Shown: in pieces, positions 10,243 through 27,980 of the stretch | Position numbering within the stretch: the first letter of the stretch is position 1 | Layout of the letters: each line of letters begins with the position of its first letter | From: Nonomuraea cavernae | GTDB lineage: Bacteria > Actinomycetota > Actinomycetes > Streptosporangiales > Streptosporangiaceae | Reading direction: 5' to 3' | DNA length: 64,000 bases | NCBI RefSeq assembly: GCF_014646355.1 | Contig: NZ_BMNH01000028.1 | Location: 1 to 64,000 of the forward strand | Program-made: the position numbers and the translations under genes | Notes under the pieces: model-generated | Told to the model about the DNA's origin: nothing | The model's database searches: none | What the model saw: the letters and a program-made list of their open reading frames with translations, nothing else

Positions 10243-11148
10243 ATGTACCTCGAAGAGCTCCGCACCCTCCTGGCCCGGCACGCCCGCCCTGACTGGACCA
10301 CCGCCATCGACGGCGTGCTGATCTCGAAGGTCGACCGACCGGATCCACCGGCGCCCTCCATGACCGGTACGGTGCTCGCGGTCATCGCCCAGGGCGCCAA
10401 ACGCCTCGCGCTGGGAGACCGGGTCTACGAGTACGGCCCCGGGCAGTACCTGATCGCGTCCGTCGACCTGCCCGTCACCGGACAGTTCACCCAGGCCGAA
10501 CCCGGGCAGCCGGCCCTCGGCTTCGGTCTCACGCTGAAACCGTCCGCCGTCGCCGAACTGCTGCTGCAGGCCGGTCCCGGAGACACCCCCCGCGCCGGCG
10601 GGGGCGCGCCGTCCGGGATCGCCGTCAGCGACGCCCCGCCCGCTCTGCTCGACGCGGCGGTCCGGCTGCTGCGCCTGCTCGACGAACCCCGCGACCGCGC
10701 CGTACTGGCCCCGCTGGTCAAACGCGAGATCCTGTGGCGCCTGATCACCGGCGAGCAGGGCGCGGCGGTGCGCCAGCTCGGCCTCGCCGACAGCAGTCTC
10801 AGCCATGTCTCCCGGGCCGTGCGCTGGATCCGGGAGCACTACGCGGAACCCTTCCGGGTCGAAGACGTGGCACGCCTGTCCGGCATGGGCGTCTCCGCCT
10901 TCTACCGCAACTTCCAGGCGGTGACCGCGATGAGCCCCATCCAGTTCCAGAAACAGATCCGGCTCCAGGAGGCCCGGCTGCTGCTCGCCACCCACCCGGG
11001 CGACGTCACCGGGGTCGGCCATCGCGTCGGCTACGACAACCCGTCGCAGTTCAGCCGTGAGTACCGCCGCCAGTTCGGCGTCCCCCCGAGCCGGGACGCG
11101 GCCCGCCTGCGGAACACCGTACGCACTCCCGAGAGTGTCCTGCCCTGA
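10243..11148 (+). CDS. AraC-family transcriptional regulator
   Basis: A 301-residue regulator. The N-terminal ~150 residues are an AraC_N (type II arabinose-operon-like) sensor domain (SMTGTVLAVIAQGAKRL, then YEYGPGQYLIASVDLPV). The C-terminal ~100 residues hold two helix-turn-helix motifs (RVEDVARLSGMGVSAFYRNF and VGHRVGYDNPSQFSREYRRQ). The start at 10243 gives the usual N-terminus (MYLEELRTLL); a frame extension upstream is not conserved-looking. It is transcribed divergently from the ABM monooxygenase and esterase genes across a 143-bp gap and probably controls them. The ligand is unknown. Confidence 0.9.
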   Translation: MYLEELRTLLARHARPDWTTAIDGVLISKVDRPDPPAPSMTGTVLAVIAQGAKRLALGDRVYEYGPGQYLIASVDLPVTGQFTQAEPGQPALGFGLTLKPSAVAELLLQAGPGDTPRAGGGAPSGIAVSDAPPALLDAAVRLLRLLDEPRDRAVLAPLVKREILWRLITGEQGAAVRQLGLADSSLSHVSRAVRWIREHYAEPFRVEDVARLSGMGVSAFYRNFQAVTAMSPIQFQKQIRLQEARLLLATHPGDVTGVGHRVGYDNPSQFSREYRRQFGVPPSRDAARLRNTVRTPESVLP

Positions 11149-11274
11149 GCGGGGCTGGACCGCAAACGAGGATCGTGCAAGAGGTGCGAGGACAGTTCTC
11201 CTGAGGTTGTCACCTCTCGATTCGGCGGTTTCACCACTTGCCTTGAAGATTCGACCGGTTGCTAGCCTGCTCGC

Positions 11275-11487
11275 GTGGCACTCACCGTTGATCGACAGTT
11301 CCCTGCCGCGCTCGCCGCCGCGATGGCGGTTCCGTTCGACTATGACGGCGGTGAGGGGTCGACTTCGAGCCCTTCGCGGCATTCCTGTCCGCTGAGGAGA
11401 CCACCTGTTGTCTTCCTCGGTTCCGAAGGGGAGACCGGCGTCGTCGCGCGTGACCTGGGCGACACCATCATGAAACTCTGTCGATGA
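11275..11487 (+). pseudogene. Decayed conserved hypothetical gene
   Basis: A GTG at 11275 opens ALTVDRQFPAALAAAMAVPFDY. After a one-base frame change the match continues as VDFEPFAAFLSAEETT, then, after an internal deletion, as PVVFLGSEGETGVVARDLGD in the first frame. These three blocks read like consecutive parts of one common actinobacterial protein with its centre missing, so the gene is broken by a frameshift plus deletion. It has been likened in annotation to SUKH-type proteins, but I cannot confirm that. Not functional. Confidence 0.5.
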
Positions 11488-11511
11488 GCCCGACAGCTGT
11501 CTCATTCCCTT

Positions 11512-11688
11512 GAGGATGTGGGGCGAGTTCAAGTGCAGGCGCATCGGCCCGTCGAGTTACGGCTCCCGTATTCAGGGAGATAACGCATGTGGCCGGTCCG
11601 CGAACTGAGGACGCCTTTCTCGACGCCTTCGGCTTCGAGTTGAATGAAAGAATCGTCGATTACGCGGACACGTGATAAGTGCGCCATG
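11512..11688 (-). pseudogene. Truncated paralogue of the gene at 25761-26513
   Basis: The minus strand from the ATG at 11688 encodes MAHLSRVRVIDDSFIQLEAE and, further on, GHMRYLPEYGSRN. This parallels MAHLSTVRAVDNSIIQLEVE and GHVRYLPKYGSRN in the intact gene. After a frameshift the match continues as ADAPALELAP (intact copy ADVWALELAP) and stops near 11512. Only ~60 of 250 codons remain. The homology continues into the upstream region to about 11782, so the 5' end and its promoter were duplicated together. Confidence 0.8.
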
Positions 11689-12022
11689 CAGCATTTCCCT
11701 GACAGGCGGCCAGTAGTGGGATCTGGGCGAGGTCGAGGCCTGGGCGCAGTCTTACATGATCACAAGTCGCCGTCAAGACTGTTGCGCTGTCGGTGAAGTC
11801 TCCTGGTCAAGCGACTGGAGGCGTCGGGCGGGTCACTCGAATGAGGGTCGACGTAACTCTGAACGACCGTGTAACCACTCACCGAAGCGGACCGGGTCCA
11901 AATGAGCGCGGGCCCGGGTTTCGTGCGCTGAAAGTTACGCTAAGTGCCGAGAAATACCCTATTGATCATCCGGGCGCCGCCGTGTCATAGTCGCTCCGTT
12001 GTACACGGGGAAGGAGACGAAA
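11689..12022. other. Duplicated upstream region and promoter space
   Basis: 11689-11782 aligns with the region upstream of the gene starting at 26513 (shared block GCCTGGGCGCAGT and ATGATC, then GTCAAGAC). The rest shows no gene and ends in the promoter of the secreted protein at 12023. I cannot assign its -35/-10 boxes with confidence. Confidence 0.55.
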
Positions 12023-12412
12023 TTGTTTTCTCGTAAGATCGGTCGCCGGACGGCGGTCGTCGTGGCGCTGGTCGGCCTGGCGATGTCGCCCGCGGCCGTA
12101 GCCAACGCGCAAACGGCCTCCGCCGCTCTGGCCTGCGGGGGCCCCACGGCCAAAACACCGTGGAAGGTGGGCACCAACATCTGGGGCGAAGGGTTCGCCG
12201 GCTCATGCGCCGGCGACTACCGGATCTTCGTCGAGCGTTCGCGGTACTACGGGTGGGAGACCATGGCCGCGTCGCAGTGGATCAAGGCCAACGAGGGGAC
12301 GGTGGTGACGTACAACTGCTCGGGCACAGGGACGCACACGTTCAGGTCCGCCGTCTGGAAGAGCGGCACGGGCATCATCAAGACGTCGGGCACCTTCCGG
12401 ACCTCGTGCTGA
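12023..12412 (+). CDS. Small secreted protein, unknown function
   Basis: A 129-residue precursor with a TTG start at 12023, seven bases after a strong GGGAAGGAG; an in-frame TTG at 11999 precedes that site and is unlikely. The N-terminus is a classical Sec signal (FSRKIGRRTAVVVALVGLAM, then AVANAQTASA), cleaved after about residue 36. The mature ~93 residues have four Cys, enough for two disulphides, and many Gly, Thr, Ser and Trp residues (KVGTNIWGEG, FRSAVWKSGTG), suggesting a compact beta fold. There is no catalytic motif. It stands alone on the plus strand. It could be an inhibitor or cell-surface protein; I do not recognise it. Confidence 0.75.
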   Translation: MFSRKIGRRTAVVVALVGLAMSPAAVANAQTASAALACGGPTAKTPWKVGTNIWGEGFAGSCAGDYRIFVERSRYYGWETMAASQWIKANEGTVVTYNCSGTGTHTFRSAVWKSGTGIIKTSGTFRTSC

Positions 12413-12617
12413 CCCCATCCTGACCGTCGGGGAAGCGGCCGCAGCTCGCGTGCGTGAGAGGGGCGCACGTCTCTGGTCCGGAAGATCGACCGCCGCGGGC
12501 CATGGCGGCGCCGGCGGATGAGCACACCCAGCGGTTCGGAGAAAGCTGAGTTCGGAGGCGGCGTCCAGGGTTGGCGTCGTCTCCGAAACTCGGACTGCTA
12601 CACCTGCGCAGGAATTC

Positions 12618-12713
12618 CTACCGCGTCGGCGTGAAGGACGAGACGATCAGCCAGATGCCGGCGGCCGCGATCACGACGACGATGGCGACTTCCCTTGTTC
12701 GACCGGGAATCAT
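12618..12713 (-). CDS. Possible 31-residue single-span peptide, or tail of the frameshifted gene upstream
   Basis: An ATG at 12713 opens MIPGRTREVAIVVVIAAAGI, and then WLIVSSFTPTR, a tidy single-span membrane peptide. It lies in the same frame as the TM-like continuation of the membrane gene upstream, so it may be the last span of that gene rather than a separate one. No clear ribosome binding site precedes it. Confidence 0.3.
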   Translation of the reverse strand: MIPGRTREVAIVVVIAAAGIWLIVSSFTPTR

Positions 12714-12733
12714 GCTGGTCGACCGTTCCCTGA

Positions 12734-13651
12734 TCACGTTTCGTGCCAGGTGGACGGTCCCGGCCCAGGAGATTCGCGCCAGGGGGCTCCGAACGGCCGC
12801 TGCGACGAGAAGGGCCGCGAAAGCAGCGGCCACCGTATCGAATCGACGAAAGGCGTCATCTCGACATCGCCGCTGTACTGGCTGATGTACGTCACGACGT
12901 CGAGCAGCGGGAAGAGAAGCAGGGCCGCCGCGGCCGCTGTGCCGGCAAGTCTTCCCCATCGGATGGAGGCGGTGACGTTCGCGGTCGCCGCCAATACGAC
13001 GAGAACGACCGGCAAGCCGATCCCGTCGGCCTCGCAGGTCCACCAGGCGAGGTCGTCCCAGAAGGATTCCGAAATCTGGATGTAGACGCCGCTGAGCAGG
13101 CGGTTGTCGGATGCGACCGTCCAGCGGTGGAACATCGGTGTCCACGCCGCCGCGACGACGGCGCCCGCCCACAGGATGAACCCGTGCCGCCTCCGAGGCA
13201 GGGGTGACCGAGCCGCCAGGCGCAGCGCCCCTGCGGCCACCGGATAACAGACGATCAACGGCCAAGGTGGCACGACCGCACGATCCTGTCCGGTGCATGG
13301 GTCGGGGCCCGGCAGAAGGAACGCGGTGACGAGCCCGAAGGCGAGCACGGCGCCGACCGCGGCGACGGCGGTGAGCGTGGCCCGGCGTGACCCGCGTAGG
13401 AGCAGTCCGGCCACGACGACCGGCAGCAGGAGAACGCCCCAGAACAGCAGCTCTCCCGGCACGTTCTCCAGCGCGTAAGGGCCTTCGACTTGGTAGGGGG
13501 CGGTGTCCGTCACGGAACAGAACCAGCCGACGCTCTGCCTGCCGACCCCGAAGGTCGTCAGGATCACCGGTCCGGACGCGGCCAGAACCGCACCTAAGCG
13601 CAGCACCGCCGCCGCCGGAGATGGCGCTTCTGCCGCGGGGCCCGGCATCAC
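12734..13651 (-). CDS. Polytopic membrane protein, 3' end possibly frameshifted
   Basis: A 305-residue membrane protein with about six spans: residues ~12-35, ~67-85, ~92-113, ~131-146, ~162-176 and ~215-255 (two). Cys in the loops (WFCSVTD, DPCTGQ) may pair. After YISQYSGDVEMTPFVDSIR near 12850 the sequence becomes Pro/Arg/Trp-rich and unlike a membrane protein. The neighbouring frame at the same point reads TVAAAFAALLVAAAVRS, a good span, and stays open to 12618. A single-base frameshift at about 12840-12860 is therefore likely; the restored protein would have two more spans. Function unknown. Confidence 0.55.
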   Translation of the reverse strand: MMPGPAAEAPSPAAAVLRLGAVLAASGPVILTTFGVGRQSVGWFCSVTDTAPYQVEGPYALENVPGELLFWGVLLLPVVVAGLLLRGSRRATLTAVAAVGAVLAFGLVTAFLLPGPDPCTGQDRAVVPPWPLIVCYPVAAGALRLAARSPLPRRRHGFILWAGAVVAAAWTPMFHRWTVASDNRLLSGVYIQISESFWDDLAWWTCEADGIGLPVVLVVLAATANVTASIRWGRLAGTAAAAALLLFPLLDVVTYISQYSGDVEMTPFVDSIRWPLLSRPFSSQRPFGAPWRESPGPGPSTWHET

Positions 13652-13760
13652 GGCACCTTCTCCCGGAAATGATCAATCCGGGCCAGGGTAGCGGATGACC
13701 GCCGACTGAACGGGGTCCTTTTTCTGTCGACGGTGTAGGCCGATCGCCGGAGGGCGGGAA

Positions 13761-18317: not shown

Positions 18318-20097
18318 ACGGTCACTTCCCGGGCTCCTCGTCCACCTGCGCGACGGTCGCCTGAGCGGTGATCCCGAGCTGCCGGGCCATCCCGTCTGGT
18401 CCGGGATCGAGGGCGTCAGGGCCTACGGGCTCTGGCCGCCCGGACACCTCTCCACGGCCACGTACGGCTCCGCCCGCCTGCTCGTCGCCGGTCACTGTCT
18501 CGCCTCCCAGGAGGAGATCGCCGCCCGGCTCGCGACCGCGATCGACGGCGCCGGCCCCGCCCTGCTGACCGAGTTGCCCGGAGCGTACGCGTGTGTCCTG
18601 GTGGAACGGGACAGGGTCCAGATCTACAGCGATCTCGCGGGACAGTTCCCCTTCTATCTGGCCGCCCGCGGCGGAGGGTGGCTGGTCTCGTCGCACGCCT
18701 GGCCGCACGGGCGCGAGCCGGACCCGCTGGCGGCCGCGGTCGACGTCGTCTGCCCGCACGTGCTGCCGCTGGCGGAGGGCAGGTCGTTCCTGCGGGGTGT
18801 TCGCGAAGTCGGCGGCGGTCACCTGATCTCCGCCGGGTCCGGTGGCGTCGAGGTGCGGCGTTACGCCCCATGGCTGCCCGAGCGGGTGACCGATCCGGCC
18901 GAGGGGGCTCGGGCGTTGCGGTCGGCTCTGGTGGAGGCCGTGCGTCTGCGGCGCCGCTCCGGCGTCGTCACCTCGGATCTGAGCGGCGGCGTCGACTCCA
19001 CCGCGCTCGCCCTGCTGGCCGCGCGGCTGTCACCGGAGGTCATCGACGCCGTCGTCTATCACCATCTGTCCGCTCCGGCGGACGACCTGGCCCAGGCCGT
19101 CCGGGTCGCGGGGGCCGATCGGCGCATCAGGCTCGCGACCGTTCGCGGCACCCCGGACACCCTCCCCTATCAGCGGCTGGACCAGGCCTGGGCCGATCGC
19201 CCCGCGCCGGGGGCTCTGGCTCATCGCAGGGCGATGCTGCGGCTTCGCTGGGCGGCCGCTCACGGATCCGGGGCGCATCTCACCGGCGAGGGCGCCGACG
19301 CGCTGTTGCACCCTTCGCCCGCGTATCTGGCCGACCTGGTCAGGGCGGGTTCGGTGGCCCGGCTCGCCAAGGACAGCGCCGCGCTCGCCCAACTGCGCAA
19401 GATCTCGCCCGGCGGGCTCATGCTCCGGGCGGTACGGCTCGCCCGTACGTCACCCGCGACGGCGCTGCGCCAGCTGGGACGGAGTCTGAGCGTTCCGCCA
19501 CGCGCGGCAGGGTCACCCGCGGACGCCGTGTCGTGGTGGAGCGTCTCGGGAGAGGCCATCGGCTGGTTGGCGCCCCGGGTGCGGTCGGAGCTCGCGGACC
19601 TCGCGACCGACCCCGCCACGACCAGGGCCATGCCCGAGGGCGCGGGCCCGGCCGACCACGCCGCGCTGGCCGAACTTCGCTCGGCCGCGCACGCCCAGCG
19701 TTACCTCAGGGAGCTGGGCGCCGGGGTGGGGGTCGCGGTGCACGCCCCCTACCTCGACCGGGCCGTGATCCGCGGCTGCCTGGCCGTCCCCGCCGTGCTG
19801 CGCGCCGAGCGGGGCCGCTTCAAACCGCTGCTCGTCGCGGCGCTGCGCGACCTGGTGCCGAACGACGCGCTGTCCCGTACGACCAAAGGCGCCTATCAGG
19901 CAGAGGAGTACCTGGGCGCACGCCGGGCGCGTCGTGAGATCTCCGCGCTCCTGGCGGATTCGAGGCTGGTGGATCTCGGTGTCGTGGACCCGCGCGCGGT
20001 CACTGTCACGCTGACCCGCCTGTGTCACGGTGCCCCTGTGCCGCTCGGTTCGTTCAGTCGCCTCCTGGCGCTGGAAATCGCGCTTCGCGACACTTGA
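18217..20097 (+). CDS. Lasso peptide cyclase (asparagine synthetase-like, LasC)
   Basis: A homologue of asparagine synthetase B that adenylates the ring Asp and forms the isopeptide bond with Gly1. The N-terminal glutaminase-like domain (to ~residue 190) lacks the catalytic Cys, as in lasso cyclases. The ATP-pyrophosphatase signature SGGVDSTALALLAA lies near 19000, and the C-terminal region keeps PYLDRAVIRG and RTTKGAYQAEEY. Homology starts at about 18325 (LPGLLVHLRDG), right after the precursor stop. In this frame the only ATG/GTG/TTG is the ATG at 18217, inside the precursor. A GTG at 18314 overlapping the precursor stop reads VNGHFPG but is out of frame by one base, so a frameshift or base error at the CCCGGG near 18328-18333 is possible. 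Confidence 0.85.
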   Translation: MNRRSSSIWDASGLSSAATPPAATPTPTRSITGERSLPGLLVHLRDGRLSGDPELPGHPVWSGIEGVRAYGLWPPGHLSTATYGSARLLVAGHCLASQEEIAARLATAIDGAGPALLTELPGAYACVLVERDRVQIYSDLAGQFPFYLAARGGGWLVSSHAWPHGREPDPLAAAVDVVCPHVLPLAEGRSFLRGVREVGGGHLISAGSGGVEVRRYAPWLPERVTDPAEGARALRSALVEAVRLRRRSGVVTSDLSGGVDSTALALLAARLSPEVIDAVVYHHLSAPADDLAQAVRVAGADRRIRLATVRGTPDTLPYQRLDQAWADRPAPGALAHRRAMLRLRWAAAHGSGAHLTGEGADALLHPSPAYLADLVRAGSVARLAKDSAALAQLRKISPGGLMLRAVRLARTSPATALRQLGRSLSVPPRAAGSPADAVSWWSVSGEAIGWLAPRVRSELADLATDPATTRAMPEGAGPADHAALAELRSAAHAQRYLRELGAGVGVAVHAPYLDRAVIRGCLAVPAVLRAERGRFKPLLVAALRDLVPNDALSRTTKGAYQAEEYLGARRARREISALLADSRLVDLGVVDPRAVTVTLTRLCHGAPVPLGSFSRLLALEIALRDT

Positions 20098-20102
20098 CCG
20101 CC

Positions 20103-20927
20103 ATGGCCTCGTCCACGCTTCCGGAGCTCTACCGCCACACCGACGAACACGGCGTGGTGGTCGTCGACGTACGAACGGAGCACTGCCACGCGCTGAATTC
20201 CACCGCGGCTCTGGTGTGGGAGGTGCTGCGGAGCGGTGGCACCGTCGCCGACGCGGTCGAGGCGCTCGCGGACCGGCATGTGGACCAGCCGCGCGAGCGC
20301 CTCCGGGCCGATGTCACCGGGTTCGTGGCCGAGCTGCGCGAAGCGGGCCTCCTGCGTCCGGCCCCACCTTCGGTGAGTACGAGCGCGCCCGGGATCGAGA
20401 AAACCGAGGAGACCGAACAAGCCGAGGAGGTTGAGGGGGGCGAACGGCGGGCCAGCGGGGTGCCGATGGCGCGCGGCCCGGCGGGCCGGCCGAGTCCGGC
20501 GAGCGTCGTGTTCCTGCTGGCCGCGGTGACGCTGCTGGCCTTGCCCGTGCGCTTCTCCTCCCGGCTCGCGCGTCGGGCGCATCGTCGGCTGGGCCACCGG
20601 CCGCTCCCGGTCGACAGAGCGGAACGCATGACGGCAGAGGTGAAGAAGGCGGCGGCGATCTTCCCTGGACGCGCCGCCTGCTTCGAGATCTCCCTGGCGA
20701 CCGTGCTGTGGGCCGCGGCCCTGGGGCACCGGCTCGACTGGTGCTGGGGAGTGCTGCCCGACCCCTTCACCTTCCACGCCTGGGTCGAGACGCAGGGACA
20801 GCGCGTAGAGGACGACGAAGACCGTCTTTACGGCCCGCCCTATCACCGGCTCCGTCCGCTGGACACACAACAGTGGCCGCTTCGTTCTGAACGCCTGTTT
20901 CGGTGGCCCACCTCGTTCCGGCGCTGA
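20103..20927 (+). CDS. Fused lasso maturation protein: RRE (B1) plus leader peptidase (B2)
   Basis: A 274-residue fusion. Residues ~5-85 are a PqqD-like RRE domain that binds the leader (VVVVDVRTEHCHALNSTAAL, with AVEALADRH and VAELREAGLL). A Glu-rich linker follows (~96-118), then a transglutaminase-like peptidase (~130-274) with catalytic Cys193 (GRAACFEISLAT) and His225 (PFTFHAWVE). It would bind the precursor and cut before Gly39. In many actinobacteria B1 and B2 are separate genes; here they are one. The ATG at 20103 follows the cyclase stop by five bases. A hydrophobic stretch at 133-148 is probably part of the fold. No lasso ABC transporter gene follows. Confidence 0.9.
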   Translation: MASSTLPELYRHTDEHGVVVVDVRTEHCHALNSTAALVWEVLRSGGTVADAVEALADRHVDQPRERLRADVTGFVAELREAGLLRPAPPSVSTSAPGIEKTEETEQAEEVEGGERRASGVPMARGPAGRPSPASVVFLLAAVTLLALPVRFSSRLARRAHRRLGHRPLPVDRAERMTAEVKKAAAIFPGRAACFEISLATVLWAAALGHRLDWCWGVLPDPFTFHAWVETQGQRVEDDEDRLYGPPYHRLRPLDTQQWPLRSERLFRWPTSFRR

Positions 20928-21916: not shown

Positions 21917-22990
21917 TCAGTGCCTGGCGCCGCCGGGGATGACGATCTCCGCCTCGCCGGGGAACTCGTGGAGGAGGCGGCCGGCTGACAGCAGCCGCAA
22001 ACGTCCGGTCCGCTGGTCAGGGGGGAGCTGGATGACGGCATAGCCGTCCGGCGTGGGGCCCACGGCATAGTGGCCGTCCGCCAGGGGCGTGCGCGACACG
22101 AGGGCGCCCCCTTGGCCGAACTCCAGGACCGCGACCTTCTCCCCGGTGTACTCCAGCAGGAAGATGCGGCCGCCGCTGACCTGCACCGACAGGCCGTGGT
22201 CGGCGTCGGCCAGCACCCCGTCTCCGGTCGCCTGGAGGGTCACGGTCGAGCCGTCCGTACGCAGTTTCACCTGCCTGCGCGTGCTCTCGCCGTCCTGTGA
22301 CCGGTCCAGGAGGACCAGCTCGCCCGAGGGCAGGATGCCGACGGGCTCGTACCCGTCCGGCAGGCGCGGCGTGGTGAGGCGGCCGGTGGCGAGGTCCACG
22401 TCGGTGTATTCGGCGACCTTCCCGCTCGCGTGGTAGCCGAGGATCACGCGCCGGGAGTCGGCGGACCAGGTCCAGGGGCTGTAGGCGGTGTCCGGCCCGC
22501 CGGTCGACGGGGAGGCGACGCGGTGGGTCGTGTCGCCCAGCAGGTCTCTGAGCTCGTAACCGCTCGCGGTCGGCCTGCCGAGCCAGCGCCCGTCGGGGGA
22601 CAGCGTGAGGTTGCCCGGCGGGTTGACGGTGCGGGTGCCGAGCAGGTAGCGCCGGCCGTCCGTGACGGCCAGCAGCGTGGGGCAGGCGTGTCTGCACGGT
22701 GTGTAGACGGCCGCGCCCCGGCCGATCGGGCCGCTCGCGGGCAGTGCCGGGTAGGCCGGAGAGGGCTCCGCGGAGCCGGACGTCGCCGGGACCGCCACGA
22801 TGGTGTCGCCGGACGGGTGCGTCAGGCTCTGTCGCAGGCCGACTCCACCGACGATCACCAGCGCCGCGCAGGCGGCTCCCGCTGCGGTCCGCGCGATCCG
22901 GCGACGGCGCAGGACGCGCAGCGCGCGGCCCGCGTCGGCGTAGTCACGCGCGTCCTGTTCGAGCTCGTGGTACGTGTCGCGAAGGTTCAC
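21917..22990 (-). CDS. Membrane-anchored partner of the SigE-type sigma factor
   Basis: A 357-residue single-span protein. The N-terminal ~32 residues are cytoplasmic, rich in charged residues (LEQDARDYADAGRALRVLRR), followed by one span (~35-52) and a large outer domain. The outer part consists of WD/YncE-like beta repeats (LTLSPDGRWLG, YSPWTWSADSRRVILGY, VGILPSGELVLLD, YAVGPTPDGYAVIQL), probably a propeller. Its ATG overlaps the stop of the sigma factor by four bases, and this pairing is standard for the SigE-type group, so it may act as an anti-sigma or sensor protein. No zinc-binding anti-sigma motif is present. Confidence 0.75.
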   Translation of the reverse strand: MNLRDTYHELEQDARDYADAGRALRVLRRRRIARTAAGAACAALVIVGGVGLRQSLTHPSGDTIVAVPATSGSAEPSPAYPALPASGPIGRGAAVYTPCRHACPTLLAVTDGRRYLLGTRTVNPPGNLTLSPDGRWLGRPTASGYELRDLLGDTTHRVASPSTGGPDTAYSPWTWSADSRRVILGYHASGKVAEYTDVDLATGRLTTPRLPDGYEPVGILPSGELVLLDRSQDGESTRRQVKLRTDGSTVTLQATGDGVLADADHGLSVQVSGGRIFLLEYTGEKVAVLEFGQGGALVSRTPLADGHYAVGPTPDGYAVIQLPPDQRTGRLRLLSAGRLLHEFPGEAEIVIPGGARH

Positions 22991-23490
22991 GGATGCACCC
23001 TCTCCAGCAGTTGCGGAGCCACTTTTCTCAGACGGTTGAGCGCGTCGTGCGCGTGCCGCTTGACCGTCCCGACGGAGCAGTCCAGCCGAGCGGCGACCTC
23101 CGCCTCCGGGAGGTCCTCGTAGAACCTCAGGTAGAGCACGATCCGCTGCCGGGGACTGAGGAGGGCGAGGGCGTGCCGGAGCATGATCTTCAGCTCGGTC
23201 TGCGTGGACCGGTCCTCGTGGGCCGGAGCCTCGGGCAGGTCGGCGGTGGGGACGAAGGTCAGCCGGCGGGGGCGGCGCCAGGTGCGCAGCTGGTTGAGCA
23301 TGATCTTGCGTACGTACGCCTCGGGATCGGCCACCGTCATGATCTTGCGCCAGCGGGCCGCCGCCTTGACCAGGGTCTCCTGGAGCAGGTCCTCGGCGTG
23401 GGTGTGGTCACCCGTGAGCAGGAAGGCCGTCCGGGACAGGGCCAGGCCGCGCGCGGCCACGAACTCTCGGAAACTCTCGGTGTCGGTCAC
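22987..23490 (-). CDS. ECF RNA polymerase sigma factor, SigE-type
   Basis: A 167-residue ECF sigma factor. Region 2 is at ~5-75 (LLTGDHTHAEDLLQETLVKA, the region 2.2-2.4 helix, then YVRKIMLNQLRTWRR) and region 4 at ~105-160 (LSPRQRIVLYLRFYEDLPEA, then VAARLDCSVGTVKRHAHDAL). The GTG at 23490 follows GGAAGGG; upstream in-frame codons are not conserved-looking. The membrane-anchored partner gene follows with a 4-bp overlap. The Cys-rich/mau-like operon lies immediately upstream in the same direction (137 bp) and could be part of its regulon or transcript; this is inferred from position only. Confidence 0.9.
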   Translation of the reverse strand: MTDTESFREFVAARGLALSRTAFLLTGDHTHAEDLLQETLVKAAARWRKIMTVADPEAYVRKIMLNQLRTWRRPRRLTFVPTADLPEAPAHEDRSTQTELKIMLRHALALLSPRQRIVLYLRFYEDLPEAEVAARLDCSVGTVKRHAHDALNRLRKVAPQLLERVHP

Positions 23491-23626
23491 CCGGACACAG
23501 CCCTTCCGTTGGACGGCCTCACCATTGAAGACTCCGTCCGCCCGCGAAAGGTTGAGGCCGTCAGAGGTGACGCGGAGGCGCGCACGGTACGGCATCGCGC
23601 AAGCGGGAGCCCGTGGAGCGGCGCGC

Positions 23627-24004
23627 TCAGGCCGCGCCGAGCAACACCAGGCCCATCACCAGGACCAGGGCCGCTCTGACCCAGGTCCATGCGGACACCG
23701 TCTCGCGGACGCCGAAACACTGGCAGGCAGCGGGTCTCCCGGCGGCCAGCAGGTAGGTCTGCGCTCCGGTGAACGCGATGCCCAGCAGGGTGCCGGCCAC
23801 CCCTACGGCCAGGTCGGGCACGGAGGAGAACAGGGCCGCGGCCGTCAGTGCCTCGACGGCGACGATCGCGCCGGCCGCCGCCGCCGCGATCCGGAACCGG
23901 AGCCCGAAGTTCGCCAGGCTGTCGCGGAAAGCCCCGAAGGCTCGGAGCTTTCCGACGACGGCGAGGACCAGGACGACTCCCAGGGCGTACCGGACGATGA
24001 TCAC
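23627..24004 (-). CDS. MauE/DoxX-like redox membrane protein
   Basis: A 125-residue protein with four membrane spans (~3-20, ~35-58, ~65-88 and ~105-124). It has the MauE pattern: GKLRAFGAFRDSLANFGL after span 1, and ACQCFG after span 3, giving a CxC near the membrane surface. MauE and related proteins are thought to help disulphide formation or redox supply for cysteine-rich periplasmic proteins, as in methylamine dehydrogenase maturation. It is the last gene of the operon and overlaps the preceding membrane gene by four bases. The nearby thioredoxin-like and Cys-rich genes fit this role. Confidence 0.8.
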   Translation of the reverse strand: MIIVRYALGVVLVLAVVGKLRAFGAFRDSLANFGLRFRIAAAAAGAIVAVEALTAAALFSSVPDLAVGVAGTLLGIAFTGAQTYLLAAGRPAACQCFGVRETVSAWTWVRAALVLVMGLVLLGAA

Positions 24005-24543
24005 GCGATCACCAGCAGCACGATCATCGGAATCGCCAGGATCACGAACAACGGCCTCAACCGCGGCAGTTCGAAGTAGAAGGCGGTGTCAGCGGCCATC
24101 TTGCTCCGGGCGGCCACGAACGTCAGGAGCATCACCGCCCTGCCCAGCGCGAAACCGGCCCCCGCCAGGAGCGCCTCCGGCCATGAGGCGAGGAACACGA
24201 TGGAGATCGCCATGATGTGCGGCAGCGCGGTCGGGGAGTAGGTCCGCATTCCGGTGCCCATTTCCATGCCGAACTGCACCGACCCCCAGAAGGGGATCCC
24301 GGTGACGAACTGCGGGACCAGGCGCGCGTTCTGCAGTATCGGGAACTTGAGCACGCCGAGTTCCTGAAGCAGCAGGACGACGGCCGCGAGGGCGACCAGA
24401 ATCTGGAGGACGAGTAAGGGGAACGGCGCACGGACGAGTGAGCCGACCACGACGAAGGCGAACGCGGTGGCCATCGCCCCCACGAAAAGCCCGAAGACGA
24501 AACCGGAAACGTCAGAACCCCGCCGGACCGACGAGGACAGCAC
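24001..24543 (-). CDS. Membrane protein of the mau-like operon
   Basis: A 180-residue protein with four or five spans: ~12-36, ~40-60 (FPLLVLQILVALAAVVLLLQ), ~108-122, ~124-145 and ~160-180. Between spans is FVTGIPFWGSVQFGMEMGTG, a conserved-looking Gly/Pro/Phe-rich loop without Cys. The start is a GTG at 24543 with a modest upstream site; a later GTG is possible. It overlaps the MauE-like gene (4 bp) and follows the 56-residue gene by 18 bp. I do not recognise the family; its place is where MauF or CcdA-type proteins occur in related operons, but the CcdA Cys pair is absent. Confidence 0.65.
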   Translation of the reverse strand: MLSSSVRRGSDVSGFVFGLFVGAMATAFAFVVVGSLVRAPFPLLVLQILVALAAVVLLLQELGVLKFPILQNARLVPQFVTGIPFWGSVQFGMEMGTGMRTYSPTALPHIMAISIVFLASWPEALLAGAGFALGRAVMLLTFVAARSKMAADTAFYFELPRLRPLFVILAIPMIVLLVIA

Positions 24544-24561
24544 CCAGGCGCTGTTGAGGCT

Positions 24562-24732
24562 TCAAACGGATCCGGACAGCGAGAACCCGGCGACCAGGGC
24601 CGCGACCAGCCAGGTGAAGCCGGTCGTGCCGGCGCCGAGCGCCCGCGCGGCGAGCACGGCCGCCTCCCCCGCCACGATCAGCGCCAGACCCGGCGCCAGC
24701 AGACGGAGGGAGGCCGTCGTGGTGGTACGCAC
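24562..24732 (-). CDS. 56-residue two-span membrane peptide
   Basis: A GTG at 24732 begins directly after the TAG of the Cys-rich gene (TAGGTG), so translation is probably coupled. The product is RTTTTASLRLLAPGLALIVA, then a second hydrophobic stretch (TTGFTWLVAALVAGFSLSGS) and a stop at 24562, giving two short spans and little else. It is too short for usual gene finders but fills the gap between two operon genes exactly. Function unknown; probably a membrane component of the same system. Confidence 0.6.
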   Translation of the reverse strand: MRTTTTASLRLLAPGLALIVAGEAAVLAARALGAGTTGFTWLVAALVAGFSLSGSV

Positions 24733-25254
24733 CTAGATCGCGGTCCGGCAGATCGAGAACCGGCCGGAGCCGCTGCTGCCGCAGGTGACCGAGTAGTAGT
24801 AGCCGTCGGAGCACTTGCGTCGCGTGCTGGTGGTGCTGCCGCCGGTCCAGCGCCACGCGTTGCGGCCGGCGCAGGTGTCGGAGTAGGAGGTGTAGTTGAT
24901 GCTGACACAGGTGCCCGAGTAGCCGTCGTCCCGGTGCCAGCCACTCGTGCAGTTGTCGGAACCGTAGTAGGCGGTGGGGGGCACGCAGACCGTGCTCGCG
25001 TTGACGAATCCCTTGCAGGTGTCGTGGTAGGTCTTGTAGACCACGGCCGCCGCGCTGCGCGGCCGGGACCCCGGCAGCAGGTCCAGGGCGCCGAGCCCGG
25101 CCGCCGTCGCCACGCCGAACGCCATGCCGAACATCCGCCTGCGGCTCCAGCGTTCCTTGACCGGGGCCACATGGGACGGGAGCGCCGCTTCGGGTGGCTC
25201 CTGCGCGCTCGGTATCTGGTCGAGGATCGATCTCTTCTGGCCGGCCATGGTCAC
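24733..25254 (-). CDS. Tat-exported Cys-rich protein of the mau-like operon
   Basis: A 173-residue precursor. SRRRMFGMAFGVATAAGLGA (~37-56) is a twin-arginine signal preceded by a long polar N-region. The mature part (from ~70) has eight Cys (80, 90, 102, 116, 128, 148, 158, 169), enough for four disulphides, and many Tyr, Ser and Thr. Two internal segments match each other: YKTYHDTCKG and YTSYSDTCAG. The size, Tat signal, Cys-rich body and the MauE and MauD-like neighbours recall the methylamine dehydrogenase light chain, but its spacing of Cys and Trp (106, 134, 136) does not match that chain as I know it. Likely the cargo matured by this operon. Starts overlap the upstream gene by 4 bp. 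Confidence 0.75.
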   Translation of the reverse strand: MTMAGQKRSILDQIPSAQEPPEAALPSHVAPVKERWSRRRMFGMAFGVATAAGLGALDLLPGSRPRSAAAVVYKTYHDTCKGFVNASTVCVPPTAYYGSDNCTSGWHRDDGYSGTCVSINYTSYSDTCAGRNAWRWTGGSTTSTRRKCSDGYYYSVTCGSSGSGRFSICRTAI

Positions 25255-25760
25255 GGCTGTGTTTCCCTTCGTCTCAGTACTGTTCGTTCGACGACGTCCA
25301 CCAGCGCGTCGCCGGACCCCAGCGGGGCCGTGAACACCACCAGCCCAGCTGCGTCGACGATGAGGAGGGCGGGCGCGTAGGGGACGGTCACGGACCGCCA
25401 GATCGCCGGGTCCTTGATCACCCGAACCTCCGCGGGGAGGCTCTTGTCGAATCCCGGATCGTCGGAGACCACGGCGAAGGAGTGGTCTCCAGGCAGCTCG
25501 GGAGCCAGCTTGCCGACGGCGAGCAGGACATCCTCACAGGTCGAGCACTGCCGGTTGACCTTGACGACGAGGGTCGTGCCGTTCGGGGTCGTGACGGCGG
25601 ACCGTACCTGTTCGTCCTGTCCCGCGCCGAAACGCACGCCGACGCCGTTGTAGGTGGCCATCTCCAGCTCGCGAACCCGGCGATACAGGCCCGCCCCGGC
25701 CGCGAACAGCAGGGCGACGAGTATGCCGAGCACGATGACCGCGGCTGACGTGGGGTCCAC
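25251..25760 (-). CDS. MauD-like membrane-anchored thioredoxin-fold protein
   Basis: A 169-residue protein with an N-terminal span (~5-25) and an outward-facing thioredoxin-fold domain. The active-site-like motif is QCSTCEDVL (Cys72, Cys75) after strand TTLVVKVNRQ, followed by HSFAVVSDDPGFD and a cis-Pro-type VTVPYAPALLIVDAAG strand. MauD/TlpA-like proteins reduce or isomerise disulphides in exported proteins. The next operon gene, the Cys-rich Tat protein with four likely disulphides, is the obvious client. Its start abuts the stop of the upstream gene, and its stop overlaps the next start by four bases. Confidence 0.8.
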   Translation of the reverse strand: MDPTSAAVIVLGILVALLFAAGAGLYRRVRELEMATYNGVGVRFGAGQDEQVRSAVTTPNGTTLVVKVNRQCSTCEDVLLAVGKLAPELPGDHSFAVVSDDPGFDKSLPAEVRVIKDPAIWRSVTVPYAPALLIVDAAGLVVFTAPLGSGDALVDVVERTVLRRRETQP

Positions 25761-26513
25761 TCAGGCCGTCCAGGCGAGGCGCTTGATCTTGGTCAGGAAG
25801 TCGGCGGCGGACTCCTCCGGTGCGATCCCCTTCGCGCGGACCGAGACGCCCGGCTGTGATTCGCGGGGGGCGTCCCACGGGGTCAGGGTCACCACGGCCG
25901 AGTCGGTGACCATGAGCAGCGGCTGCGTCTGGGAGTCCGGCGCGGCCTCCAGGCGCCAGATCTCACCCGCGGGGGCCTCGTAGCCGCGCCACTTGGGGAT
26001 CTGCTTCGCTCCCGCCTGCTTCGTCTGGACGTGCAGGGTTCCGACGCCCGCGATGGTCTGGATGTAGAGGGCCATCGACAGGTCGAACCGCTGCCCGGCA
26101 TCCGCGGTCAGGCCCTCGGGAGTGTCGGTCCAGGCCACCCTGGTGAAGGTCTCGACGATGTCCTGCGACTCCCACATGGGGGCGTAGAACATGCCGTGCG
26201 CCATGTGCCAGGGCCCGAGCCAGGCCGCCCATCGGGCGTCCTGAGGGGTCTTGCAGTCGTAGATGACGAGCTCGCCGCCGGCCAGGGAGAAGCGCTCGCG
26301 TTCGCGCCCGCCGACCGAGAACACCGCCGAGCCGAGCGAGGACTTCGGGGCGAGTTCGAGTGCCCATACGTCGGCCGTCGTGTTACGGCTCCCGTATTTA
26401 GGGAGGTAGCGCACGTGACCGCACCATGAATGCAGGGCGTCTTTGTCGGCGTCTTCGACTTCTAGTTGAATGATGGAGTTATCGACCGCGCGGACTGTGG
26501 ATAAATGTGCCAT
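25761..26513 (-). CDS. First gene of the mau-like operon, unknown function
   Basis: A 250-residue cytoplasmic protein started at the ATG at 26513 (MAHLS), as in the truncated paralogue at 11512-11688. It is rich in Trp, Ala and Asp with beta-like repeats (YGSRNTTADVWALELAPKSS; FYAPMWESQDIVETFTRVAW; GRERERFSLAGGELVIYDCK) and has no signal or catalytic motif I recognise. It directly precedes the thioredoxin-like gene with no gap, so it is the lead gene of the six-gene operon. A second, decayed copy of its 5' end and upstream region lies 15 kb away. It may be a cytoplasmic component handling the substrate or cofactor of the exported partner; function unknown. Confidence 0.6.
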   Translation of the reverse strand: MAHLSTVRAVDNSIIQLEVEDADKDALHSWCGHVRYLPKYGSRNTTADVWALELAPKSSLGSAVFSVGGRERERFSLAGGELVIYDCKTPQDARWAAWLGPWHMAHGMFYAPMWESQDIVETFTRVAWTDTPEGLTADAGQRFDLSMALYIQTIAGVGTLHVQTKQAGAKQIPKWRGYEAPAGEIWRLEAAPDSQTQPLLMVTDSAVVTLTPWDAPRESQPGVSVRAKGIAPEESAADFLTKIKRLAWTA

Positions 26514-26786: not shown

Positions 26787-27980
26787 TCACCGCGCCGTGC
26801 GGGCGAGCACGCCCAGCGGGTCGGCCAGCAACTCGGAGAAGCCGAGTTCGGAGGCGCCGACCAGGGTGGCATCGTCTCCCAGCGCCGAGATGCGCAGCCG
26901 TACTCGCTCCCGGGCGACGGGCAGCGCGTTGGTGGCTATGCGGGCGCGCACCTGAGCCGCCGCGCCCGGGTACATCTCGCGCAGCATCCCACCGAAGATC
27001 ACCATGCCGGGGTTGAAGAGGTTGCAGAGATTCGCCACCCCGATGCCGAGCCAGTCGCCCACGTGCCGCAGCGCGCCCTGAGCCACCGGGTCGCCACGGT
27101 CGGCGTCGTCCACCACGGCCCGCACGGCGTCGCGGCCGAACCACTCGGCGGGCCGGCGGGCCGCGTCGAGCAGGGCCCGCTCGCCGACCTCCGCCTCCAG
27201 GCAGCCACGTGAGCCGCACCCACAGGGACGCCCGTTGTACGGGTTGACCACCATGTGCCCAAGCTCGCAACCGTATCCACTGTCGCCGTCCAGCAGCTTG
27301 CCGCCGACGATGATGCCACCGCCCACGCCGACGTCGCCGTGTAAATAGATCAGGTTCCGCAAGCCGAGGCCCGCTCCGCGCTGCTGTTCGGCCAGTGCGC
27401 CGAGATGCGCCTCGTTGCCCACCGGCACCGGCAGGCCGAGATCGAGCCGGCGGCCGAGCTCGGTGCCGAACGCCTGGTCCACCCAGCCCATGTCCGGCCC
27501 GAAGCGCACCATGCCGTCGCCGGGGCGGATCATTCCGCAGTACGACGCGCCGACGCCGACGCACACCGACCCCGGCGGCGCCGCCTGGTGCAACTGCTGA
27601 CCGAACTGGGCGAGCACCTTGACCACGCAGTCGAGGTCGGCCCCGGCGCGCGGCCGGACCGCCTCCCTGCGGTCCAGCATGATCCCGCCCAGCGCCACCC
27701 GGGCGGCCACCAGCCGGTCCACGGCGACGTCGAAGGCCAGCACGTACACCCGGCTGGAGTCAGGCCGGACCACCAGCGACGGGCGGCCCGCCCGGCCGGT
27801 CTCCGTGGGACGCTCCTCGCGGACCAGGCCAGCCGCGGTGAGCTCCGCCGTCAGCGCCATGATGGTGCTGCGGTTCAGCCTCATCCGCTCGGCGAGCGCC
27901 GCGCGGGAGAGCGAGCCGCTCAGGTGCACGTGTCGGAGCAGGGTGCCGACATTGTGCCGGCGGATCTCCTCCTGGCCCAA
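26787..27980 (-). CDS. ROK-family transcriptional regulator
   Basis: A 397-residue ROK repressor. Residues ~10-65 are a winged helix-turn-helix (RAALAERMRLNRSTIMALTA); the rest is the ROK fold with the zinc motif GRPCGCGSRGCLEAE, an ATP-site-like DVGVGGGIIVGGKL, and the Glu-rich GNEAHLGAL in the active-site region. The start is a TTG at 27980 preceded by GGAGG at good spacing. Such proteins usually sense sugars. No sugar catabolic gene is adjacent; the divergent gene is a secreted protein at 28179. Confidence 0.9.
   Translation of the reverse strand: MGQEEIRRHNVGTLLRHVHLSGSLSRAALAERMRLNRSTIMALTAELTAAGLVREERPTETGRAGRPSLVVRPDSSRVYVLAFDVAVDRLVAARVALGGIMLDRREAVRPRAGADLDCVVKVLAQFGQQLHQAAPPGSVCVGVGASYCGMIRPGDGMVRFGPDMGWVDQAFGTELGRRLDLGLPVPVGNEAHLGALAEQQRGAGLGLRNLIYLHGDVGVGGGIIVGGKLLDGDSGYGCELGHMVVNPYNGRPCGCGSRGCLEAEVGERALLDAARRPAEWFGRDAVRAVVDDADRGDPVAQGALRHVGDWLGIGVANLCNLFNPGMVIFGGMLREMYPGAAAQVRARIATNALPVARERVRLRISALGDDATLVGASELGFSELLADPLGVLARTAR

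Follow-up and report, generated by a model that had tools for sequence, protein, structure and literature searches.

A putative selenocysteine-containing MauF-like membrane protein in a Mau-type operon of Nonomuraea cavernae and other Actinomycetota

The DNA analysed here, a window of 64,000 nucleotides from Nonomuraea cavernae, carries on its minus strand (23627-26513) a compact operon for which a listing of open reading frames (ORFs) gives six frames, A to F. A first-pass annotation had described six overlapping or abutting genes that copy the maturation part of the methylamine-utilisation (mau) loci. The tight arrangement of the operon was borne out, but the number of genes was not. Frames D (24562-24732) and E (24001-24543), previously taken for a 56-residue two-span peptide and a further membrane protein, are one reading frame broken by a TGA (24564-24562), and hence the operon is composed of five genes. 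The merged gene (24001-24732, minus strand) is predicted to encode a membrane selenoprotein of 243 amino acids with selenocysteine (Sec) at position 57, which we call Sec-MauF; D is its first part, up to the UGA, and E its second part. The first-pass annotation had thus missed the main point: what it took for a stop codon is, by our analysis, the selenocysteine that serves the membrane protein as its redox residue. The other genes, all on the same strand, encode a cytoplasmic-looking protein (A, 25761-26513), a MauD-like protein (B, 25251-25760), an exported Cys-rich protein (C, 24733-25254) and a MauE-family protein (F, 23627-24004). In a Pfam scan only F (MauE) and a downstream extracytoplasmic function (ECF) sigma factor were identified, and A to E reached no Pfam or NCBIfam family above the cut-off.

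In the window the frame runs through the TGA (24562-24564, minus strand) as ...ALVAGFSLSGSV-U-SLNSAWVLSSSVRRG.... The TGA that separates D from E was examined because genes resembling selA, selB and selD are neighbours in many of the related loci; when the Sel proteins of the window's genome served as BLAST queries, 28 of 80 loci proved to contain at least one Sel gene. These 80 loci of the window's branch are the best 80 of 119 relatives found in a scan of named genomes with a profile of E. The in-frame TGA is present in every one of them, in 79 of 79 with a called E by script and in L064 by direct translation. The presence of the same codon throughout the relatives joins D and E and excludes the six-gene reading. 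Moreover, the nucleotide that follows the TGA is A in 79/79 scripted loci, and the motif SGSxU[ST]xNSA surrounds it in the same 79 as well as in L064. Across 49 aligned sequences A48, S53-S55, Sec, N60, S61 and A62 are invariant, and coding is conserved on both sides of the UGA. Two matches that appeared to contain two TGA codons (L038 and L085) were checked, and the second TGA proved to be an ordinary stop.

A second, distant branch of the family carries SP[UC]G at the same site. In the class sample all seven readable SelA-positive genomes of this branch have Sec (G138, G249, G269, G345, G241, G101 and G113, the gene of the last being split over two contigs), while both genomes without a SelA match have Cys (G105 and G201), so that nine of nine are as expected (Fisher p 0.028). 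The count of seven refers to the class sample alone; two further SelA-positive Sec-type relatives, G002 (SGAIU, a partial match to the motif) and G006 (a second gene, SPUG), lie outside it, and G359, with a weak match to the second-branch profile (4.9e-5) and no SPxG motif, enters no count. A phylum sample of 396 genomes yielded 29 with a match, 27 of which supplied 28 loci: 22 with Sec, three with Cys and three that are unreadable. The second branch, with the motif SP[UC]GxSM, appears to be the larger one (L131, L164-L168, L175, L176 and L184-L208; Cys form in L130).

The distribution of the gene follows that of the selenocysteine machinery. A search for SelB matches all 148 relatives and all 14 control genomes, presumably via elongation factors, and does not discriminate between them; SelA was therefore used as the marker. 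The SelA cut-off is passed by 79 of the 148 relatives, and by all 28 genomes with a full-length TGA-bearing gene, the window's own genome included (hypergeometric 1.5e-9, among the 148). In the class sample, which shares three genomes with the former set, the genomes with a TGA-bearing gene are SelA-positive in 8 of 8 cases, compared with 92 of 296 overall. The genome of the window itself exceeds the cut-offs for SelA (425 bits), SelD (379 bits) and tRNA-Sec (76.9 bits), and a SelB-like gene adjoins selA. The tRNA-Sec gene sits on a contig other than that of selA and selD, a region in which neither the tRNA scan nor the Rfam scan detected one. A molybdopterin oxidoreductase gene near selD (PF00384, 3.1e-27) has a single in-frame UGA, in the context U-H-S-S-T-V-P-G that formate dehydrogenases also show. 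It occupies 10523-13684 (minus strand) of L129 on contig C1, beside selD, selA and the selB-like gene, and is probably a formate dehydrogenase and a second selenoprotein of this genome. Taken with the conservation around the codon, the internal UGA of Sec-MauF almost certainly encodes selenocysteine.

A hairpin resembling a bacterial selenocysteine insertion sequence (bSECIS) follows the UGA (24537-24554, minus strand). In the centroid fold it has a stem of 7 bp and a loop of 4 nt, spanning nt 11-28 counted from the U of the UGA. Since the register of the stem shifts between subtypes, we used a test in which codons are redrawn synonymously according to local usage, and applied it to 79 loci, which give 74 distinct windows. 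The mean folding energy of nt 9-31, counted from the UGA, is -7.95 kcal/mol, compared with -3.09 kcal/mol after randomisation (z -16.75, 0 of 200), and nt 32-60 fold less well than randomised sequence does (z +6.83). At the fourth codon past the UGA, 18/74 use TCA, a rare codon that makes up 2.6% of the Ser codons in these loci. From the second branch 26 Sec and five Cys sequences passed the script filter. The codon test places a hairpin at the corresponding position in the Sec sequences (z -5.27), with nt 34-62 at z +4.31; taken together, the five Cys homologues gave no sign of one (z -0.54). In most sequences of this branch the stem is GATGCT/AGCATC, and in other sequences of the branch it is GATGGT/ACCATC, which is a compensatory change. 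Twelve of the 80 loci were excluded by eye when the hairpins were aligned, L071 for its differing spacing and the others (L049, L053, L054, L078, L081, L103, L106, L107, L108, L109 and L115) as identical or near-identical sequences. On the codon statistics, the hairpin is under selection and bSECIS-like.

With hhalign, the merged D and E matched MauF of Paracoccus at a probability of 95.6 (E 1.1e-8, 163 columns), and the Sec aligned over the Cys of the WSPCG of MauF. Two other membrane proteins of the Paracoccus mau cluster, included as negative controls, had E-values of 0.21 and 0.29. When 13 sequences are aligned jointly, the Sec/Cys column is invariant, and the UGA falls on the SPCG cysteine of MauF and on that of the Cys homologues. 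Proteins of the second branch weakly match DsbD_2 and DsbD_TM, and one of them (L165) exceeds the gathering score of DsbD_2 (PF13386; 26.2 versus 24.9 bits). The window protein reaches no Pfam model, PF13386 included, and eight Sec-MauF family members, as well as MauF itself, remained well short of the cut-off of every NCBIfam model. By profile comparison, then, Sec-MauF belongs to the MauF family within the DsbD/CcdA superfamily and has Sec in place of the cysteine of SPCG. It shares with MauF of the Paracoccus denitrificans mau cluster (L153) the membrane family, a redox residue at the SPCG position and MauE- and MauD-like genes alongside. However, MauF has Cys where Sec-MauF has Sec, its motif is SPCG rather than SGSxUSxNSA, and no methylamine dehydrogenase genes were seen beside Sec-MauF, the neighbours being judged by eye and only C tested with a hidden Markov model (HMM). 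The transmembrane domain of DsbD and CcdA (PF13386, PF02683) has a second conserved transmembrane Cys, whereas Sec-MauF conserves a single redox residue.

TsoB, a DsbD-like selenoprotein resembling a rhodanese/DsbD fusion (NF045694), is listed in a 2026 table (PMC13188914). It is represented by a fusion model of 572 positions with two Sec residues that has no significant match to the Sec-MauF family; the weak match of L091 has an E-value of 0.098. The same table covers 119 prokaryotic selenoprotein families and subfamilies and gives no MauF or equivalent. Among the matches listed in searches of the open-access full-text literature, a scope that takes in neither bioRxiv preprints nor most subscription papers, there was no paper on a selenoprotein MauF.

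The partner proteins strengthen the earlier comparison with the maturation part of a mau locus. F matches the MauE family PF07291 (4.8e-18; 66.1 bits, gathering score 27) and MauE of Paracoccus in hhalign (E 1.4e-10), which supports its earlier description as MauE-like; the CxC formed by C94 and C96 is invariant in 12 sequences. B has an N-terminal hydrophobic anchor and a thioredoxin-like domain whose CxxC (C72 and C75) is invariant in 14 sequences. Its description as a MauD-like thioredoxin finds support in hhalign (E 2.9e-5, probability 73.7) but not in the family databases, for no Pfam family matched and no NCBIfam family was found at E 1, while the MauD model TIGR02661 gives Paracoccus MauD 383.7 bits. 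A, of 250 amino acids, looks cytoplasmic and could be placed in no family, in keeping with its earlier description. It has a confident AlphaFold model (mean predicted local distance difference test, pLDDT, 94) and no significant PDB match at E 0.001, and the best Z of 7.3 in a VIA fold search is within the stated background, which does not make the fold a new one. Weak matches of A to encapsulins (Pfam 0.016, NCBIfam 0.0064) extend over about 70 residues and found no support in profile and fold searches. An assignment of A as MauJ (hhalign E 0.68) or MauB (E 0.34) was rejected as well.

C carries the twin-arginine translocation (Tat) signal and the eight Cys that had been noted before. In an alignment of 72 sequences C90, C102, C128, W134, W136, C148 and D150 are invariant, R38 and R39 nearly so, and the number of Cys in the mature protein is even in 69. 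All five long C proteins (L084, L098, L113, L115 and L121; 303-311 residues) contain PG_binding_1. On account of these fusions to peptidoglycan-binding domains, C probably acts at the cell wall. In the second branch, the cassettes L130 and L132 encode a Tat protein with a Cys-rich region and LGFP repeats. The structure prediction that had been proposed for C gave a poor model (mean pLDDT 69), with no PDB match at E 0.001 and a best VIA Z of 3.4, which is within background and does not make this fold a new one either.

MauA, the light chain of methylamine dehydrogenase (MADH), likewise has a Tat-type signal, is Cys-rich and is encoded together with MauD and MauE. C nevertheless fails the Me-amine-dh_L HMM (PF02975), to which Paracoccus MauA scores 180 bits, so that the check proposed earlier returned no light chain. 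As a candidate light chain C was also pursued with Pfam, NCBIfam, phmmer and profile searches of the PDB and hhalign, and nothing was found beyond the Tat signal. Searches of the window's own genome for the light chain (PF02975) and the heavy chain (PF06433) gave no match but were equally silent in all 14 control genomes, and absence from the genome is not established. No mauA, mauB or mauG was seen among the listed neighbours of the relatives, which were inspected by eye without an HMM search.

Judged by genome names, all 80 loci of the window's branch belong to Actinomycetota, among them Microtetraspora, Sphaerisporangium, Nonomuraea, Pseudonocardia, Micromonospora, Amycolatopsis, Streptomyces and Mobilicoccus. 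The conservation of the neighbourhood, proposed earlier as a check, was found and marks the operon as no accidental grouping: A, B, C and E keep their order in 68 of 80 loci, and the 12 exceptions are truncated contigs, genes missed by the caller or the profiles, or rearranged loci such as L071. The profile of F detected it in 36/80. Homologues of C occur in 21 of the 148 relatives, the own genome counted, and a search of plasmids with C as the query gave no match. In 17 regions for which genes were called, the same order is shared by two divergent subtypes. Type I is that of the window, and there an ECF sigma factor (PF04545, 6.2e-16; 22987-23595, minus strand) adjoins the operon, followed by a partner gene (21917-22990, minus strand) that has no Pfam match and is anti-sigma-like by position only. 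The two genes follow the operon in L025-L031 and not in L033. In type II several loci have a regulator gene upstream, a BTAD regulator in L034, and the subset of loci read often has a lipoprotein-like gene downstream.

Several other arrangements were observed. Downstream of the cassette in L057, L060 and L068 lie two genes for proteins of about 168 and 200 residues, by eye another ECF sigma factor with its partner, which recalls the window's subtype. In L059, L063, L080 and other loci from Pseudonocardia the cassette ends, in the place of F, with a small CxxC thioredoxin-like protein (seen in L059) and lies beside genes that on inspection resemble two succinate dehydrogenase/fumarate reductase pairs (seen in L080). 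In the window, a ROK-family protein with a MarR-type N-terminus (26787-27980, minus strand; PF00480, 5.6e-43) is encoded directly upstream of the operon and is probably unrelated to it. On the plus strand (18574-20927), a gene resembling asparagine synthetase (PF00733, 2e-31) overlaps one for a fusion of PqqD and a transglutaminase-like domain (PF05402, PF13471), a pair that resembles lasso-peptide maturation genes.

In known mau systems, MauF, MauE and MauD are needed for the beta subunit of the dehydrogenase. We consider it reasonably probable that the operon is a selenium-dependent Mau-type maturation module, made up of Sec-MauF, its MauE- and MauD-like partners and the Tat-exported C. Its role would most likely be a selenol/thiol-disulphide exchange in the membrane that matures the exported C. 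The single membrane selenol of Sec-MauF would exchange electrons with the CxC of F and with the extracytoplasmic CxxC of B, and B would then form or reshuffle the disulphides of C outside the membrane. C would be the product of the module, and A might, as a guess, be its dedicated escort before export.

If the UGA were a real stop, D and E would be two translationally coupled small membrane proteins that together form a two-chain MauF-like carrier. ORF callers do split the gene in this manner, and in the window a GTG is located seven codons past the UGA. We regard this as hardly credible, since the codon is TGA in all 80 loci and never TAA or TAG, conserved coding spans it, an in-frame ATG, GTG or TTG within 15 codons past it exists in just 30/79 loci, homologues from SelA-negative genomes have Cys at the site and a selected hairpin comes after it. 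A more serious alternative, though still an unlikely one, accepts the selenocysteine and lets the module work in the oxidative direction, with Sec-MauF acting like DsbB or VKOR, electrons passing from B to a quinone or another acceptor, and disulphides being introduced into C instead of being reduced or reshuffled. The even number of Cys in nearly all C proteins is what a fully disulphide-bonded product would be expected to have. The similarity to MauF and to DsbD_2/DsbD_TM, however, indicates a conduit of the DsbD/CcdA type, and in the known cases such conduits move reductant outward.

A module for coping with metal or thiol stress, in which C is secreted as a scavenger and the ECF sigma factor senses the redox state, would be in line with the sigma factor and partner that adjoin the operon in the window's subtype; yet the regulator varies with the subtype (BTAD beside the type II cassette L034) and no metal-binding family was found for C, which makes this improbable. 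It also seems very improbable that C is a divergent MADH-like light chain with a Trp-derived cofactor and that the module matures a dehydrogenase. The MauF-, MauE- and MauD-like partners and the two invariant Trp (WxW) next to an invariant Cys would fit such a role. So would a pooled small alignment of second-branch Tat proteins and PG-binding-fused C proteins, which matched MauA with E 5.7e-6 and a probability of 85 over 58 columns, values that the Cys content may inflate. But the two Trp are merely two residues apart, the similarity of C itself to MauA is confined to the Tat signal without a Me-amine-dh_L match, and the inspection of neighbours by eye, without an HMM search, revealed no mauB or mauG.

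Several points weigh against a selenium-dependent maturation module. The assignment of Sec57 rests on computation. The direct table of Cys/Sec against SelA is small (n=9, Fisher p 0.028), and the SelA statistic of 28/28 is uncorrected for phylogeny. The SelB-like gene scores 228 bits, which is less than the TIGR00475 cut-off of 242. RNAalifold found little covariation in the hairpin of the window branch, and single-sequence folding z-scores were mostly unremarkable in 12 sequences. The hhalign E-values are single-pair values, and the Cys homologue of G105 does match (E 2.2e-9) but only over columns past the Sec site. Moreover, position 57 is the sole column with Cys or Sec in at least 10 of the 49 sequences; without a second conserved Cys, a relay through Sec-MauF would need to be mono-selenol. 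For neither A nor C was a relative identified, the role given to A is a guess, and the direction of electron flow and the substrate are inferred at most.

Overall, our data point to a widespread candidate selenoprotein family, with at least 80 loci in the window's branch and 22 Sec loci among the 28 that were read in the phylum sample. The gene for Sec-MauF is turned into two hypothetical proteins by ORF calling. The finding would place selenocysteine in a MauF/DsbD-type carrier for thiol-disulphide exchange that is integral to the membrane. As the natural exchange of Cys and Sec at the SPCG site tracks the Sec machinery, the role of the SPCG cysteine of MauF becomes directly testable. In 28 of 80 loci sel genes adjoin the operon, which suggests why some soil actinobacteria retain the Sec machinery. 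There is also an outside chance that Sec-MauF founds a phylum-wide actinobacterial selenoprotein family which powers the selenium-dependent export maturation of a new class of wall-associated redox proteins, represented by C and possibly bearing a covalently modified WxW. If this were true, an extracellular redox enzyme of soil actinobacteria would be controlled by how much selenium is supplied.

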